DNA of 27,748 nt. Source: a virus. The notes under the pieces were generated by a model. That model ran no database searches. It saw nothing but the letters and a program-made list of their open reading frames with translations, and was not told the DNA's origin. Position 1 is the stretch's first letter, and each line of letters starts with the position of its first letter. A program made the position numbers and the translations under genes. The DNA lies in the IMG/VR virus record IMGVR_UViG_3300036985_001698, positions 1 to 27,748 of that record; one strand, written 5' to 3'. This document shows positions 4,779 to 11,513 of the stretch, one piece after another.

Positions 4779-5017
4779 AAATATCAGAAAAATATCAATC
4801 AAGACTAAAACATCAACGCAGCTCAACTAATTATATTAGCTGTTCGTGGGCGGTGTTTTATAAAGGTGAATATATAAACGGCGCAAACTATAACGGCGTT
4901 AATATTCTATCGGCTTATATGCCATGCGGGTTAATTTTGTACAGTAAAAATATGGATATAATAAAAAAGATGATCCGCGCGCATAAAACTAACAGCCTGG
5001 TGATAGTGAGAATCTAG
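4775..5017 (+). CDS. Early hypothetical protein, 80 residues
   Basis: The start overlaps the clamp stop as ATGA. The N-terminus is polar and basic. The middle has YINGANYNGVNI and a short hydrophobic stretch (AYMPCGLILY), followed by a basic helix (MDIIKKMIRAHK). Tyr/Asn content is high. No family is recognised. Coupling to the clamp gene suggests co-expression, possibly an accessory or inhibitor. Confidence 0.6.
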   Translation: MKISEKYQSRLKHQRSSTNYISCSWAVFYKGEYINGANYNGVNILSAYMPCGLILYSKNMDIIKKMIRAHKTNSLVIVRI

Positions 5018-5088: not shown

Positions 5089-5114
5089 GGGGCGGCTAAT
5101 AACCGCCCTTTTTT
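5089..5114 (+). terminator. Intrinsic terminator of the early operon
   Basis: GGGCGG (5090-5095) and CCGCCC (5103-5108) form a GC-rich stem with a 7-nt loop, followed by six T. The position directly after the early operon is as expected. Confidence 0.9.
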
Positions 5115-5133
5115 ATTGCTTCAAACAAACCGC

Positions 5134-5154
5134 GCGGACGAAAGTCCGCTTTTT
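5134..5154 (+). terminator. Second intrinsic terminator, GAAA tetraloop
   Basis: GCGGAC and GTCCGC flank a GAAA tetraloop and are followed by five T. It lies 20 bp after the first terminator, so read-through from the early operon into the convergent replication operon is doubly blocked. Confidence 0.9.
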
Positions 5155-5523: not shown

Positions 5524-7794
5524 TTATTTGATTGCTACAACTTTTGCAACAGGTTTTTGCTCTGCCAAGTCCCGAAGGCTAGATTTGCTCATGTGCGCAA
5601 ACTCGGGTGCGCAGAAAACGTGCTTTTTAGTTTTAACAGAGCGCGACGCGCACATCCCGACATCAACCCAACCTGCTTCTTCGAGTGCATGGAACAGCGC
5701 AGCAGGCGGGAATTGTTTACAGCCAAACGACATAGCCGCCCGCTCACAAATTGCCTGAAAAGGAGAGGCAATCACACCCGACGCAAACTCGCCCATACGC
5801 AACGTAATCATATCCAGCAGTGATGACTCAACAGCCGACATACCATTTTGCACGAGGGACATCTTAAAGTCTGTCATCGGCGCAGGCGCAGCAGGGTTGA
5901 ACGCCGACACGTCACGCAAAAACAACCAGTTGGCTATAAGGTCATATCCGCCGTTGTTAAACCAGCTCCAAATGCGCGACGCGGCGGCAGGAGAAAGTCG
6001 CGACGCGCTACTCCAAGTGGCAAACCACCGACGGTCACCCGATTCAAGCGACAGCGGTACACGGTCATTAGAAAACGCCAGCACAGCAAGACGGTTCACG
6101 AGGTTATACGGAGCAAGACCTTTGCGGTTAACTGACAGCATCTCAGGCGGCGCCGCGATAACTGGCTTGAGTTTATTAGCAAGCATCCGACGCGCGGCGC
6201 TGTCTGCTTCTTTAAGCTCGTTAATGACCACAATCTCTGCTTCAAGATGATAGCCCCACGCCGACTGAATCGTGTCAGTAGACATCAGTGAATAGTTGCG
6301 CAGGTGTGGACCGCACACGGCGTATATGAACGGCGCGTACATGGTATCCTTACCGATACCTTGACCACCAGCGTGAAGGATAGCGTGGTTAATCTTAACG
6401 CGCGGATTCTGCACCTTAAACGCCATGTAATCCCAGATATGCGCAAGCTCACGCTCGTCAGGAACTAGGGATTTGCAGTGTTCAAGCCACAGGGATATAT
6501 CGCCATTCAAATTTCCGCCACGAGATGAATTGGGGCGGGCGTCGCGCCACCGATTGCCATAAAGCTCACCGTCACGCATAGCGATAACAGAATCACCAGC
6601 GGCGAAGGTAATACCTGCAAGCACCTTAGCGCCCATTACCTGACGGTTTTCGTCAAAACTCATTGCGGCTTCTACTTTACGGTCAGAATGGATACTCTTG
6701 CACGACACATGACGATACACCGCGTTAAACGTCTGACGTGAAAACTCACGGCGGTTTTGCAAATCGAAGTAAGAATCGTCAGACATAACGTATGCAAAAC
6801 GCTGATACCACTCGGCCTTCTCAAGCCGTGCGATTTCCTTCTGTTCGACTTCTGCAATGATAGCCGCCGCGTCAGTGCTGAACATATCAGACGGTTCGAG
6901 TTTGCCAATGGCATTGTGCATCACCTCCGCTAAAATTTCTTCACGAAGACCGTGTGAGTGTTTAGGCCCGCCCATCTCAGCTACCCACGCAAGGTAAGTA
7001 CGACTGTCCCACGACGAGCAGTGACCATGAAAGCAACAGTAGGCACGGTTAAGCGGATGGTATCTGCCCATTAACTGCCCGTCTGTATGCTCGGCGTGGT
7101 TAGGGCAGACTACGCCAACCCAGCCTTCCGTGTTAGCAGACTCTAAAATATCACCACGAGATAATAACCACGAAAGCACATCATCACTTCCTGTGTCGAT
7201 AATAGCCATAGGGCGAACAGAAGCCGTATCAGCATCAGACGGGTGAACGTCAAGCGCCGAGCAGATTTGGTCGAGGGTAAACTCACGCTCTGGGTGGAAT
7301 TCCACAAGAATAGACTGAAACGACGCACGGTCAGGCTTCAAATTCACTGATGCAGGCAAACGAAAATTTCGCACGGGGTTAATTGCGCCACTGTCAGTGT
7401 AGCCAGCGTCAGCGATTGCTTTAATAGCGGCGCTGAATTCACCTTTTGTTGGCATATCATCTAAAGCAAACGTGTAGCCCCACTGAAAATTCTGCGGTGA
7501 GGTTTCCATTATCCACGTCGGCTCGATAGGCGGGCGTAGACTCTTAGTGCCAATGTCATCTAGCACGAGAAAAGCAACATACTCGCAGTTACCTGCGCTC
7601 GCGGACGGCTTACCGTCTTTAAAACGTGACGTGATAAAAGACGCGGTATTGCCATACCATGCACCCTTGCCATCGTACTTTGCTGGCAGGTAAGCAGGCC
7701 ATGCAAACTGACCATTGTCTTTAGCTATTTGTTTGACTAGAAGGACGCTCTCGCCTTCAGGTGCTATTCTCTCTAAATAGGTAATAAAATTCAT
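5524..7794 (-). CDS. Replicative primase-helicase (AEP-like primase plus SF3-type ATPase)
   Basis: This protein of 756 residues probably lays primers and unwinds DNA at the fork. Residues 70-160 resemble archaeo-eukaryotic-type primases: acidic LVLDDIGTK (77-84), WIMETSPQNFQ and an Arg motif RNFRLPASVN. A Cys/His cluster at 230-259 (CPNHAEH ... CCFHGHC) looks like a small zinc module. The C-terminal half is a D5/SF3-like helicase with Walker A GGQGIGKDT (476-484), Walker B IVVINELKE (521-529) and the sensor-like LAFSNDRVP and DRRWF stretches. ATG 7794 was chosen because it overlaps the polymerase stop as ATGA; the extended upstream reading uses no credible start. Fusion of both activities in one phage protein is common. 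The exact family name (RepB-primase or DUF5906 type) is my inference. Confidence 0.85.
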   Translation of the reverse strand: MNFITYLERIAPEGESVLLVKQIAKDNGQFAWPAYLPAKYDGKGAWYGNTASFITSRFKDGKPSASAGNCEYVAFLVLDDIGTKSLRPPIEPTWIMETSPQNFQWGYTFALDDMPTKGEFSAAIKAIADAGYTDSGAINPVRNFRLPASVNLKPDRASFQSILVEFHPEREFTLDQICSALDVHPSDADTASVRPMAIIDTGSDDVLSWLLSRGDILESANTEGWVGVVCPNHAEHTDGQLMGRYHPLNRAYCCFHGHCSSWDSRTYLAWVAEMGGPKHSHGLREEILAEVMHNAIGKLEPSDMFSTDAAAIIAEVEQKEIARLEKAEWYQRFAYVMSDDSYFDLQNRREFSRQTFNAVYRHVSCKSIHSDRKVEAAMSFDENRQVMGAKVLAGITFAAGDSVIAMRDGELYGNRWRDARPNSSRGGNLNGDISLWLEHCKSLVPDERELAHIWDYMAFKVQNPRVKINHAILHAGGQGIGKDTMYAPFIYAVCGPHLRNYSLMSTDTIQSAWGYHLEAEIVVINELKEADSAARRMLANKLKPVIAAPPEMLSVNRKGLAPYNLVNRLAVLAFSNDRVPLSLESGDRRWFATWSSASRLSPAAASRIWSWFNNGGYDLIANWLFLRDVSAFNPAAPAPMTDFKMSLVQNGMSAVESSLLDMITLRMGEFASGVIASPFQAICERAAMSFGCKQFPPAALFHALEEAGWVDVGMCASRSVKTKKHVFCAPEFAHMSKSSLRDLAEQKPVAKVVAIK

Positions 7795-9704
7795 TTTCCA
7801 TATCTCTCTAATGTTGAAACACCAACAGCTAACGGTAACCCTTCTGCCCATGCAGGAGCGCTACACATCACCGTTTCCAAGTCTTGCGCGGCGCTTTCCG
7901 CGTCTTCTTTTTTCACTTCTAAGACGATTTCATCGTGAACATGAAGCACGACAGTATGCCCGATTCGGCGCAACGCGTCACGAAGTAAATCGTTTGCAAT
8001 CGCCTGTGTAATATTCTCACAAGCGAGTCCAGCCCATAGCCTAGCTCGCGGCCATTCAACTGCATCAGCAGCGGGTTTCCACGCCGCCTTAGCGTAAGAT
8101 ACGCTACCATCTTCAATGTATGCTGACGGGTAACACAGCACCCGACCCGAAGGCAGGGCATACCACAAATTCACGCCATCAAACAAATACGTCACGCGCC
8201 CAGCAGTAAACTCACGACCTTTGTGACGCATGGCGCACATATACGCCCGCTCAAGCTCACCCCAGTAGCGCACTGCCCATGTGTTACTGCGACGCCATGC
8301 GTCAACGGTGCGCTTAGCTTCTGCTTCGGGCAGTGAAATGCCGTAAGCCTTACCCATTGCACCAAACGCGCCAGCCCCACCCATATAGCCGCACGACAGG
8401 ATAGCCACTTTACCAATTTGGCGTTGGTCGCTAGTAATTGAATCCATTGGGCGGTTAAAGATACCCGCCGCGGCGCGAATGTAGATGTCCTCACCACTGC
8501 GAAACACGTCAAGCACGTCTTCACTACCATGCTGCAAACTAGCCCAAGGCGTCACACGCGCTTCAATACCTGCCCAATCTGCTACCACGAACACGTTTCC
8601 GCTAGCAGGCATCAGCGCAGGGCGAAGCATACCTTTTAGAACGTCCGTGACACGCTTGCCATGCACCGGAACGATATTGCGCCCAATGACCATATCATCA
8701 CGCACTCGCTGAGGCTCTTTAGCGCATTTACGCGTGAAGTTATGCACCTGCGCACCATACGATGACGCTCGACCAGTTGCCGAGCCACCGTTGAACACAA
8801 ACGCGCCACGCACACGGTGGTCTTCAAAATCGGCAAGGTAAAGCAGACGATTAAACTTAGCAACAGACGACGCCCACAAGTCATCAGCGCACTGAATTAC
8901 CTCACCGACGTGCGATGGGATTTCTTCAGGGTCATCCATCAGCATTAGATTAGCGCGAACACTTTTGTCGATAGAATACTTCTCACCGTTCCACATCAAC
9001 TCACGCGCGGCAGGACCGACACGCTCAAGCACCCACTCCCGCATCTTAGGTGAACGAACGGACTTAATTGCGCCGTCCGTTAACTCCACGACACGCGATT
9101 GAATCTCCTCAAGCTCAACACTGGCGTAACGCATCGCGGCGCGACACAGGTCAACGTCCACCAAAACGCCCGCGTCGTTAATGCGCTCGTTGACGTGATA
9201 ATCCGCAAGCTCGTCATCAGTCAACTGACGCAGTGCCGTAGACACCGCTCGCATAGTCCGCACGTCCTGACGGCAATACTCGATTAGCTCAGGTAGCAAT
9301 TTGGTGTTAAATGGAGGAGTGCAGCACTGCTTGACTAGCATCTTGCCACGATGGTCTTTGCGCATCTCACTAGAAATAGCACGACCAACGTCTTCAAGAC
9401 TGCCCGGAAGACAATTAGCGCGAGCTTGCACAGCCGTGCAGTAAAACTGCTCTAGCTTGAAGTCTATCTGTAGAACGTACCAAAAGATTAGCCGCTCAAA
9501 GGCGGCATTGTGTGCGCGTATCTGACCCGTGTAACTTCGCACGTCATCGGGAAAAGGCATATCTGGCGTCCATGTCTGCACGTCACCATCATCAAAGGCG
9601 TAGCACATACACAGCACGTCAGTGGTGAGGTCTTGCGCGTAATTGTAAACGCCGTGTTTTGGCAAATCACATTCGCTTCTTGTTTCAAAGTCAATATATA
9701 GCAT
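7791..9704 (-). CDS. DNA polymerase, family A, with 3'-5' exonuclease
   Basis: This replicative polymerase has 637 residues. The exonuclease domain starts at once: Exo I YIDFETRS (D5, E7), Exo II RAHNAAFE (63-70) and Exo III EYCRQD (D147). The polymerase domain has GSATGRASS (308-315), motif A VVADWAGIEAR (D376), motif B with K432 and Y440, and motif C HVHDEIVLEV (D591, E592). All catalytic residues are present, so it should be active and proofreading. The start cannot be later because Exo I lies at residues 3-10. An intrinsic terminator's T-run directly touches the ATG and no free ribosome site is visible, so expression is probably controlled at this point. The downstream primase-helicase is coupled by ATGA. 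Confidence 0.95.
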   Translation of the reverse strand: MLYIDFETRSECDLPKHGVYNYAQDLTTDVLCMCYAFDDGDVQTWTPDMPFPDDVRSYTGQIRAHNAAFERLIFWYVLQIDFKLEQFYCTAVQARANCLPGSLEDVGRAISSEMRKDHRGKMLVKQCCTPPFNTKLLPELIEYCRQDVRTMRAVSTALRQLTDDELADYHVNERINDAGVLVDVDLCRAAMRYASVELEEIQSRVVELTDGAIKSVRSPKMREWVLERVGPAARELMWNGEKYSIDKSVRANLMLMDDPEEIPSHVGEVIQCADDLWASSVAKFNRLLYLADFEDHRVRGAFVFNGGSATGRASSYGAQVHNFTRKCAKEPQRVRDDMVIGRNIVPVHGKRVTDVLKGMLRPALMPASGNVFVVADWAGIEARVTPWASLQHGSEDVLDVFRSGEDIYIRAAAGIFNRPMDSITSDQRQIGKVAILSCGYMGGAGAFGAMGKAYGISLPEAEAKRTVDAWRRSNTWAVRYWGELERAYMCAMRHKGREFTAGRVTYLFDGVNLWYALPSGRVLCYPSAYIEDGSVSYAKAAWKPAADAVEWPRARLWAGLACENITQAIANDLLRDALRRIGHTVVLHVHDEIVLEVKKEDAESAAQDLETVMCSAPAWAEGLPLAVGVSTLERYGK

Positions 9705-9729
9705 AAAAAAAGGCGGCCTTTCAGCCGCC
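9705..9729 (-). terminator. Intrinsic terminator abutting the polymerase start codon
   Basis: On the minus strand GGCGGC (9729-9724), loop TGAAAG, GCCGCC (9717-9712) and seven T (9711-9705) precede the polymerase ATG with no gap. It lies 15 bp after the stop of the 212-residue gene. It should reduce transcription of polymerase and primase-helicase relative to the genes before it, unless antitermination or ribosome movement overrides it. The stem also occupies the region where a ribosome site would be. Confidence 0.85.
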
Positions 9730-9743
9730 CCTCTCCTTATCGG

Positions 9744-10382
9744 TTATGCGCGTCTGCGGCGGGTGGCAGGCGCTTCATCCTCGACAACTTCTTCTTTTGG
9801 TGCAGGTACACCATCTAGGCTAATCCATTCCACAATGTCGAACATCGGTGTGTAGATACGCCCGTATGCTTTGTGTTGATAATGTTCTTTACCCAAAGAA
9901 ACAACAGCAACGGGTTTAGTTTGGTCTGTTTCTACTTGATTAGCGATATTGACAGCTAACGTTTGCACCGCACGTTTACCGCCAACGCTGGTGACGGTGT
10001 AGCGTACTTCTTCACCTTTGTCTTCGCCATCAATACATTTCAGCGAAAAACCAACTTGCGTTTCCCAGCCACGTTTAGCGGCGGCAGGTGCAGGGTCTAG
10101 CTGTGGTAATGGCTCAGTGACGCTGACCATCTTTTCACCAAGCACCTCACCTTCACCCCATGCAATAAAGCCATGCGTAAAGCTGAAAGGATTAACTGCC
10201 CAAATGCTGTCATTGTCCACTTCGGTTTCTGACGCGCCGTACACCCAATGGCCTGTTCTATCCATTTTAAGGATAGTCACGCCACCAGTCGTGCTGGTGT
10301 CGGTTTGAATGTTACGAAGTGCAGAAGAAATGCTGTTAACTGCTGGAAGGTTGGCGTTGCCAAATACGGTTAATGATGTCAT
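9744..10382 (-). CDS. Replication-operon protein, possible ssDNA-binding protein
   Basis: A soluble protein of 212 residues. The N-terminal two thirds look rich in beta strands, with repeated aromatic residues (HWVYGASE, FSFTHGFIAWGEG). The C-terminus is acidic and then basic (EEVVEDEAPATRRRRA). It lies between a Cas4-like nuclease and the polymerase, a place often held by single-stranded DNA-binding or annealing proteins, and the acidic stretch near the end is reminiscent of such proteins. No definite OB-fold signature could be read, so the role is inference. The ribosome site AAAGGT overlaps the stop of the nuclease gene. A strong terminator follows, so this gene should be expressed more than the polymerase. 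Confidence 0.55.
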   Translation of the reverse strand: MTSLTVFGNANLPAVNSISSALRNIQTDTSTTGGVTILKMDRTGHWVYGASETEVDNDSIWAVNPFSFTHGFIAWGEGEVLGEKMVSVTEPLPQLDPAPAAAKRGWETQVGFSLKCIDGEDKGEEVRYTVTSVGGKRAVQTLAVNIANQVETDQTKPVAVVSLGKEHYQHKAYGRIYTPMFDIVEWISLDGVPAPKEEVVEDEAPATRRRRA

Positions 10383-10394
10383 TTTAATTTACCT

Positions 10395-11513
10395 TTAAAG
10401 TTTATTGAGGGCATTTGTTAATTGTTGCCCGATTAGTAAGACAGTAGGGCGAGGGTCACTTTCGTGCGCCATCGTACTGCCAGAAGATACTACTGCGACA
10501 ACATCCGTTGGCATAGGCAGTTTCAGAGCCTTTAATTTCTTCTCTGCCTGTGCCGGTGATACTAATTTACTGTCATAGATGTCATCATTTGTTAGACCAA
10601 GCGCCAAAAGCGACTCTACCGCTTCTGATTCATTAGTCCATTTTCTTGTCCCACGTTTAGCTACTAATTTGTAGTTAGGGACAGGTCTACCCGCCTCGAG
10701 CATTTGAAATGCTAATGCCCTCAAATCGGTAATCCATTGTTCCAGAATCTCTGCCTGTTGTAAATAGTTTGCAATAGAATCTGCATCAATATTATCGAGC
10801 GATGCCTGCAACGCTCTATCTACCTCACCTGTCATTAGGGGGCAAGTCGGTTTAGCTGCGCACCACTTGCAATGTTTGCCACTGGCTAATGGCGCGTCAG
10901 GTGCATCAGATAAATCGATAGCCTTCTTAAGTGTATTTTCAAACTCTCTAATGCGCTTGAAGGTGGTTTTCCAGCGCTTAACAGATGGCGGCTGAACAAT
11001 CACAAGTTCAATAGACGCCGCGCCATCAAACACCCATTCTAGCCCTTTTGTGCGCATAGCGGCGGCGGCGTAGAACATGAGCTGTTCGTTTTCTTCTACT
11101 TCTACGCTAACGCCACTGCCAAACTTCCAATCTAATATAATGGCGCGGTCACCCAATCTGCCAATAAGGTCAACGCTACCAAACACCTCAGGTAAGAAGT
11201 CACCATAGCTAACATTGGCTTCAACGGTAAACTCCATTGACTTGGTAGGGTCAATTTCATCGAGTGCCGCTAGCGCCGGTTCAATTTTTTCTTTTGCCAG
11301 CTCAGTTGTCATATCAATGCCAGCATAAGACAAGCTGTAGATGTTGAAGTTATCCTCAGTCAATAACTTTTCCATTGCAAGGTGGCAAAGCGTACCTTCA
11401 TCGGCAAACGATGACGATGGCTTAGGCGGCATTTGTTGCACCAACTTTACGCTGGCAGGGCAGGCGATAACACGTTTAGCGGTGCTACCGCCGGCAATAC
11501 TTGAATGACTCAT
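10395..11513 (-). CDS. PD-(D/E)XK nuclease, Cas4/RecB-like with Fe-S cysteines (DUF2800-like)
   Basis: This protein of 372 residues shows a RecB/Cas4-type exonuclease core: H44 (EGTLCHLAM), D115 (VFGSVDLIG), D128-x-K130 (ILDWKFGSG) and the QxxxY motif (Q144-Y148). One cysteine near the N-terminus (C18, IACPAS) and three near the middle (C215, C218 and C224 in HCKWCAAKPTC) match the pattern that holds a 4Fe-4S cluster in Cas4 and AddB proteins. It probably resects DNA ends for recombination or processes replication intermediates. The start has AGGAAG before ATG and overlaps the 39-residue gene as ATGA. There is no cas1/cas2 or CRISPR array nearby, so a role in spacer acquisition is not suggested. 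Confidence 0.85.
   Translation of the reverse strand: MSHSSIAGGSTAKRVIACPASVKLVQQMPPKPSSSFADEGTLCHLAMEKLLTEDNFNIYSLSYAGIDMTTELAKEKIEPALAALDEIDPTKSMEFTVEANVSYGDFLPEVFGSVDLIGRLGDRAIILDWKFGSGVSVEVEENEQLMFYAAAAMRTKGLEWVFDGAASIELVIVQPPSVKRWKTTFKRIREFENTLKKAIDLSDAPDAPLASGKHCKWCAAKPTCPLMTGEVDRALQASLDNIDADSIANYLQQAEILEQWITDLRALAFQMLEAGRPVPNYKLVAKRGTRKWTNESEAVESLLALGLTNDDIYDSKLVSPAQAEKKLKALKLPMPTDVVAVVSSGSTMAHESDPRPTVLLIGQQLTNALNKL

Follow-up and report, generated by a model that had tools for sequence, protein, structure and literature searches.

A terminator-shaped hairpin within a predicted split ribosome-binding site at the DNA polymerase gene of freshwater phages

To our knowledge, few genes have been described with a split ribosome-binding site. 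In phage T4, a hairpin cuts the spacing between the Shine-Dalgarno (SD) sequence and the AUG of gene 25 from 27 to 11 nt, and a hairpin at gene 38 cuts it from 22 to 5 nt (Nivinskas 1999; Malys and Nivinskas 2009; as reviewed in PMC3014915). Here we describe a hairpin in front of the family A DNA polymerase gene of a virus in IMG/VR (record IMGVR_UViG_3300036985_001698, positions 1 to 27,748; this whole stretch of 27,748 nt is referred to as the window). As in T4 genes 25 and 38, the hairpin lies between SD and AUG and shortens an over-long spacing, in this case from 28 to 10 nt. We consider it likely, with a probability of about 0.7, that the element is a hairpin-bridged (split) ribosome-binding site of the polymerase gene, built from a terminator-shaped hairpin. 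The phages with this arrangement are freshwater phages, and in them the hairpin perhaps also trims the amount of polymerase message.

The junction upstream of the polymerase gene

The operon runs in the order exonuclease (DUF2800), SSB-like protein, family A polymerase, primase-helicase (Table 1). The label SSB-like is a working one. The AlphaFold model of the P0002 product (pLDDT 81) has OB-fold SSBs as its best Foldseek matches, with weak scores (best E 0.024, probability mostly 0.2-0.44), which is suggestive only. PHROG 9528 names the same product (window 9744-10382) 'nucleotidyltransferase'; the predicted fold is nearest to OB-fold SSBs, again at weak scores, and the PHROG name is probably wrong. 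The likely start of the primase-helicase is 7794, where ATGA (7794-7791) overlaps the polymerase stop, and not 7851, where the longest ORF begins. On the plus strand, two tandem intrinsic-terminator-like hairpins with U-tracts are found at 5089-5149, after a plus-strand gene ending at 5017.

The first-pass annotation had described a GC stem and seven T ending at the polymerase ATG, with no ribosome site visible. The stem and T-tract are indeed present, on the minus strand at 9729-9705, but a ribosome site is not missing: a strong AAGGAG stands at 9738-9733, just upstream of the hairpin. The minus strand reads TAA (9746-9744), CCGA, TAAGGAG (9739-9733), AGG, the hairpin (9729-9712), T7 (9711-9705) and ATG, with UAAGGAG three bases 5' of the hairpin stem. 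At -9.0 kcal/mol to the anti-SD, the polymerase SD is among the strongest in the window, versus -3.2 kcal/mol for the best match proximal to the ATG. In most other genes of the window an SD stands 4-10 nt before the start codon, a region where the polymerase has none. Its SD, at a raw spacing of 28 nt, is too far from the ATG for ordinary use, and the stable spacer hairpin, when folded, restores a usable effective spacing of 10 nt.

The 71-nt junction region folds at -24.1 kcal/mol (z -2.94), with 2 of 200 shuffles equally stable. In a scan of the window, the composite of SD, hairpin and ATG occurs at this single site; when the 27.7 kb sequence was dinucleotide-shuffled 300 times, 11 of the shuffled versions contained such a composite (mean 0.04). 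The 7-bp GC-rich stem followed directly by U7 also has the form of an intrinsic terminator. The output of a terminator scan of the window lacks the hairpin at 9729-9712; our guess is that the scan probably missed it because the stem was extended by G-U/A-U pairs into the U-tract, leaving no tail. The window and 13 relatives gave no Rfam match at gathering level, and the two searched at E<=1 gave nothing meaningful. An alternative start inside the hairpin was rejected: the hairpin contains no ATG, GTG or TTG, and the polymerase ORF begins at the first start codon after a stop.

Table 1. Junction and operon features in the window (coordinates), and loci that carry related elements (L numbers)
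Feature	Position or loci	Strand	Evidence
DUF2800 / PD-(D/E)XK exonuclease gene, upstream, same operon	10395..11513	minus	Pfam DUF2800 2.4e-59; PHROG 69 exonuclease
SSB-like gene P0002, stop TAA at 9746-9744	9744..10382	minus	AlphaFold pLDDT 81; Foldseek
Shine-Dalgarno AAGGAG	9733..9738	minus	sequence; UAAGGAGA vs anti-SD -9.0 kcal/mol
Hairpin GGCGGCU-GAAA-GGCCGCC between SD and start codon	9712..9729	minus	-13.2 kcal/mol, core pairing probability 0.99
Stem 5' arm GGCGGCU	9729-9723	minus	sequence
Loop GAAA	9722-9719	minus	sequence
Stem 3' arm GGCCGCC	9718-9712	minus	sequence
U7, start-codon linker and terminator-type U-tract	9705..9711	minus	sequence; terminator d-score +46
Polymerase ATG	9704-9702	minus	sequence
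Family A DNA polymerase gene	7791..9704	minus	Pfam DNA_pol_A 2.3e-21; PHROG 17
Primase-helicase gene	5524..7794	minus	PHROG 1156 DNA primase; probable start 7794
C5 methyltransferase after cassette	L155		PF00145 3.3e-46
NUMOD4-HNH after cassette	L270		
Shared unnamed family starting MRVLVACEFSG after cassette	L033, L046, L151, L160		
PP-loop-like fragment after cassette	L266		
Other genes after cassette	L059, L052		
Mirror arrangement (hairpin arm overlapping an ordinary SD)	L086, L088, L092, L093, L098, L103, L111, L116, L122, L083, L203, L204, L105		
R1 RNA	L130, L134, L136, L137, L177, L178, L187, L189, L196, L124, L112, L212, L182		
Shorter R1 relatives	L161-L163, L197		
Long inverted repeat downstream of R1	L174, L171, L104, L178, L189, L130, L136		
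R2 RNA	L188:1399-1492, L180:974-1067, L038, L045, L051, L084, L085, L087, L106, L108, L118, L186, L191, L201, L268, L271; L109:1636-1711 (weaker)		

The arrangement in related phages

Scans of viral contigs and genomes provided 199 unique loci, in which 174 ends of the SSB-like gene were compared. These ends show five arrangements, the rest having no element or being unclassed. Type A (SD, simple hairpin, short linker, start codon) accounts for 72 of the 174 by automatic label, which includes mini-ORF loci; the arrangement is kept among related phages at about 65 if only loci with a gene starting directly after the linker are counted. Type B, a hairpin and then an ordinary SD, occurs at 20 loci, and type T, a U-tract terminator and then an ordinary SD, at five (L061, L114, L129, L135, L183). 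The larger structured RNAs R1 and R2 occupy the junction at about 27 and 16 loci. A mirror arrangement was also observed, in which a hairpin after the SSB-like stop has an extended 3' arm (GAAAG) overlapping the start of an ordinary SD, AAAGGAG.

Among type A loci, 35 distinct sequences have a recognised SD; their inserts measure 16-24 nt, with a raw GGAG-AUG distance of 26-35 nt and an effective distance of 6-14 nt (median 10), linker length being partly bounded by design because the start was sought at 18 nt or less from the stem. None of the 35 has an SD in the linker between hairpin and start. Sequences of the window clade are close, and conservation within it has little power, so weight is placed on the diverged lineages. 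In the window clade the SD reads UAAGGAGA, and other lineages have AAAGGAG, AAGGGAG, GACGGAG or CAGGAGG; L066 has no good SD, and all other lineages scored keep a recognisable upstream SD. The MAFFT alignment of all cassettes is not structural, and stems were therefore compared by hand. Stems vary with pairing kept (CCG/CGG in L148, UCG/CGG in L035, CUG/CAG in L047), L047 and L148 differing by a C-G to U-A double change, and the loops differ as well (GAAA, AAAA, GCAA, UACG and others). On a weakly supported tree of the SSB protein, the split-site label needs at least 8 changes, of which well-supported branches force only 2; independent origins of the arrangement are likely but not proven. A single named phage record, MW202483 (L078), has DNA similarity, and its polymerase start has no such cassette.

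Terminator character is less constant. By a d-score of the d'Aubenton Carafa form, the window clade (+46) and the L054, L060/L220/L262 and L222/L225 lineages pass and keep terminator features, L066 and L148/L150 are slightly positive, and the other L034-type sequences and L273 fail (below or near zero). Features are degraded in these failing sequences and in L270 and L052, which have almost no U after the stem. The U-tract is broken in some relatives (GATCTTT, AATCTTTCT, ACTTTTCT), and there the order of SD, hairpin and ATG and their spacing are kept. Since lineages with a failing score also keep SD order and spacing, the arrangement outlives the U-tract. The first-pass annotation had proposed comparing this hairpin in related phages as one check on its reading; the U-tailed shape recurs in the window clade and some lineages, but elsewhere the U-tract is broken with the order intact.

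The arrangement also persists when the downstream gene is replaced. The cassette directly abuts the ATG of a non-polymerase gene in nine loci (Table 1), their linker lengths coming from a script with the 18 nt limit, and an identical hairpin precedes the polymerase in L036 and the MRVLVACEFSG gene in L046. In L012, L013, L025, L029, L048 and L053, near 1712, the predicted split site opens an 8-codon mini-ORF, MFVLLELI*; its TGA stop shares bases with the ATG of a PAPS-reductase-like gene inserted there (L012 and kin). The mini-ORF ATG is changed to ATT in L006, where hairpin and U7 remain; this hairpin persists without a start-codon role, which counts against a split ribosome-binding site as its function there. 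Gene insertions leave the elements next to the end of the SSB-like gene, a behaviour that also fits a 3'-end function.

A model for the element and its competitors

Relatives with a broken U-tract keep order and spacing, and the main role of the element is better explained as a hairpin-bridged ribosome-binding site. In read-through transcripts the hairpin would stay folded. The 30S subunit would bind AAGGAG, 5' of the hairpin, by base pairing, and folding would bring the SD-AUG distance down from 28 to about 10 nt. The sequences show the arrangement, its recurrence and spacing, and its persistence through U-tract decay and replacement of the downstream gene; ribosome use, termination and coupling we infer. 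In the window clade, some transcripts probably terminate at hairpin and U7, behind the SSB-like gene, and such partial termination would yield more SSB than polymerase and helicase. Ribosomes that stop at the TAA, 14 nt upstream of the stem, could reduce termination; on another template, a trailing ribosome lowers termination in vitro (PMC10135430). The terminator score in the window clade and about three other lineages, together with the five loci that have a terminator and an ordinary SD, makes partial termination after the SSB-like gene a plausible second layer in those lineages.

The first-pass annotation had favoured attenuation at the polymerase. The terminator shape in the window clade and U-tailed hairpins before ordinary SDs in relatives make some attenuation plausible. 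A pure transcription attenuator, with most transcripts ending after the SSB-like gene, the polymerase translated by reinitiation and the upstream SD idle, is nevertheless unlikely. It would suit the well-formed terminator of the window clade, the terminators with an ordinary SD at the equivalent junction in the type T loci, and the lack of minus-strand promoter-like sites within the SSB-like gene in a scan, but it does not predict that SD and effective spacing are kept where the U-tract is broken, or that unrelated downstream genes begin at an equal distance from the hairpin. Autogenous repression, with the polymerase or the SSB-like protein binding the hairpin as an operator in the manner of T4 gp43 and gp32, appears improbable: with its hairpin beside a replicative polymerase's SD the junction recalls the T4 gene 43 operator (PMC3014915), and the upstream gene looks SSB-like, but stems and loops vary among lineages, no common loop or recognition sequence was found in them, and the element also precedes unrelated genes.

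Predicted folds of the free mRNA pair much of the SD with the U-rich linker, and this was counted against the split site. In the partition function GGAG is mostly paired in almost all sequences folded, as would suit a switch in which the linker zips onto the SD and holds the gene off until a factor or condition opens the element. Such a switch is improbable. The linker pairs with the SD at -1.4 to -10 kcal/mol. Outside the L060/L220/L262/L059 group this falls short of the pairing between SD and anti-SD, and in most lineages it does not exceed that of random linkers; sequestration was for these reasons rejected as the conserved function.

To gene finders that look for an SD at 5-10 nt from the start codon, starts of this type will count as SD-less. 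A hairpin acting both as terminator and as spacer would tie transcript termination to translation of the following gene within 40 bases, and a literature search at the level of titles returned none describing a terminator that overlaps SD and start codon. Dozens of natural variants in one phage group, differing in stems, loops, U-tracts and downstream genes, make the rules for spacer hairpins testable.

Larger RNAs at the junction and comparison with known systems

R2 is a pseudoknotted RNA of about 92 nt after the SSB-like gene, comprising P1, P2, P3 and a GCCAG/CUGGC pseudoknot. Across 13 distinct sequences, 98.3% of cells pair, a figure that leans towards the structure because it was read from the same sequences; 17 of the 23 pairs have double changes, none of 500 shuffles reaches this, and sliding the partners destroys the pairing. 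R2 was found at 17 places among the loci searched and is single-copy in each of ten records searched; no Rfam match to it was found. R2 separates TAAGGAG from the polymerase ATG in L180 (10-nt linker) and L188 (9-nt linker); at several other loci no SD precedes it. R1 has constant core strands, GAAAGCGGAU...GCAGCGAGUA, around a variable stem, with thin evidence for the helix; the GAAAGCGGAU/GCAGCGAGUA strands are possibly a loop E / bulged-G motif. In L161-L163 a small gene has an R1-like RNA of 48-55 nt between its start and an SD. Some loci contain a further long inverted repeat downstream of R1, ahead of the polymerase start (for example GGCTCTGGTCA ... TGACCGGAGCC, with TTGGTCGG in the loop).

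We tentatively suggest, as a possible though doubtful extension, that the junction accommodates exchangeable structured RNAs ranging from a simple terminator hairpin to the ~92-nt pseudoknot, that in part of the lineages the insert lies between SD and start codon and its folding sets translation of the next gene, and that some larger inserts could respond to a ligand or protein. If so, responsive inserts would amount to control by an RNA domain in the SD-AUG spacer.

The predicted split site described here differs from T4 genes 25 and 38 in several respects: the phages are different, the gene is that of a family A DNA polymerase, function is predicted from sequence, the hairpin carries a terminator U-tract in several lineages, and unrelated downstream genes share the cassette. 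With intrinsic terminators and attenuators inside phage operons it shares a GC stem with a U7 tail, placed between two genes of an operon; unlike them, the hairpin is enclosed by the predicted ribosome-binding site, the SD preceding it and the AUG coming right after the U-tract, and several relatives lack a usable U-tract. It has in common with the autogenous translational operator of T4 gene 43 an RNA hairpin where the message of a phage DNA polymerase begins. The gene 43 hairpin, however, stands about 40 bases before the start codon, its operator sequence overlaps the ribosome-binding site, and its loop bases matter, whereas loops vary here. In the E. coli thrS split site, the hairpin presumably parts an upstream single-stranded domain from the SD-start domain, in contrast to the cassette here, which parts SD from AUG. 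The two are alike in that the thrS hairpin, too, lies between two parts of the binding site, where the ribosome accommodates it without unfolding (PMC3936740).
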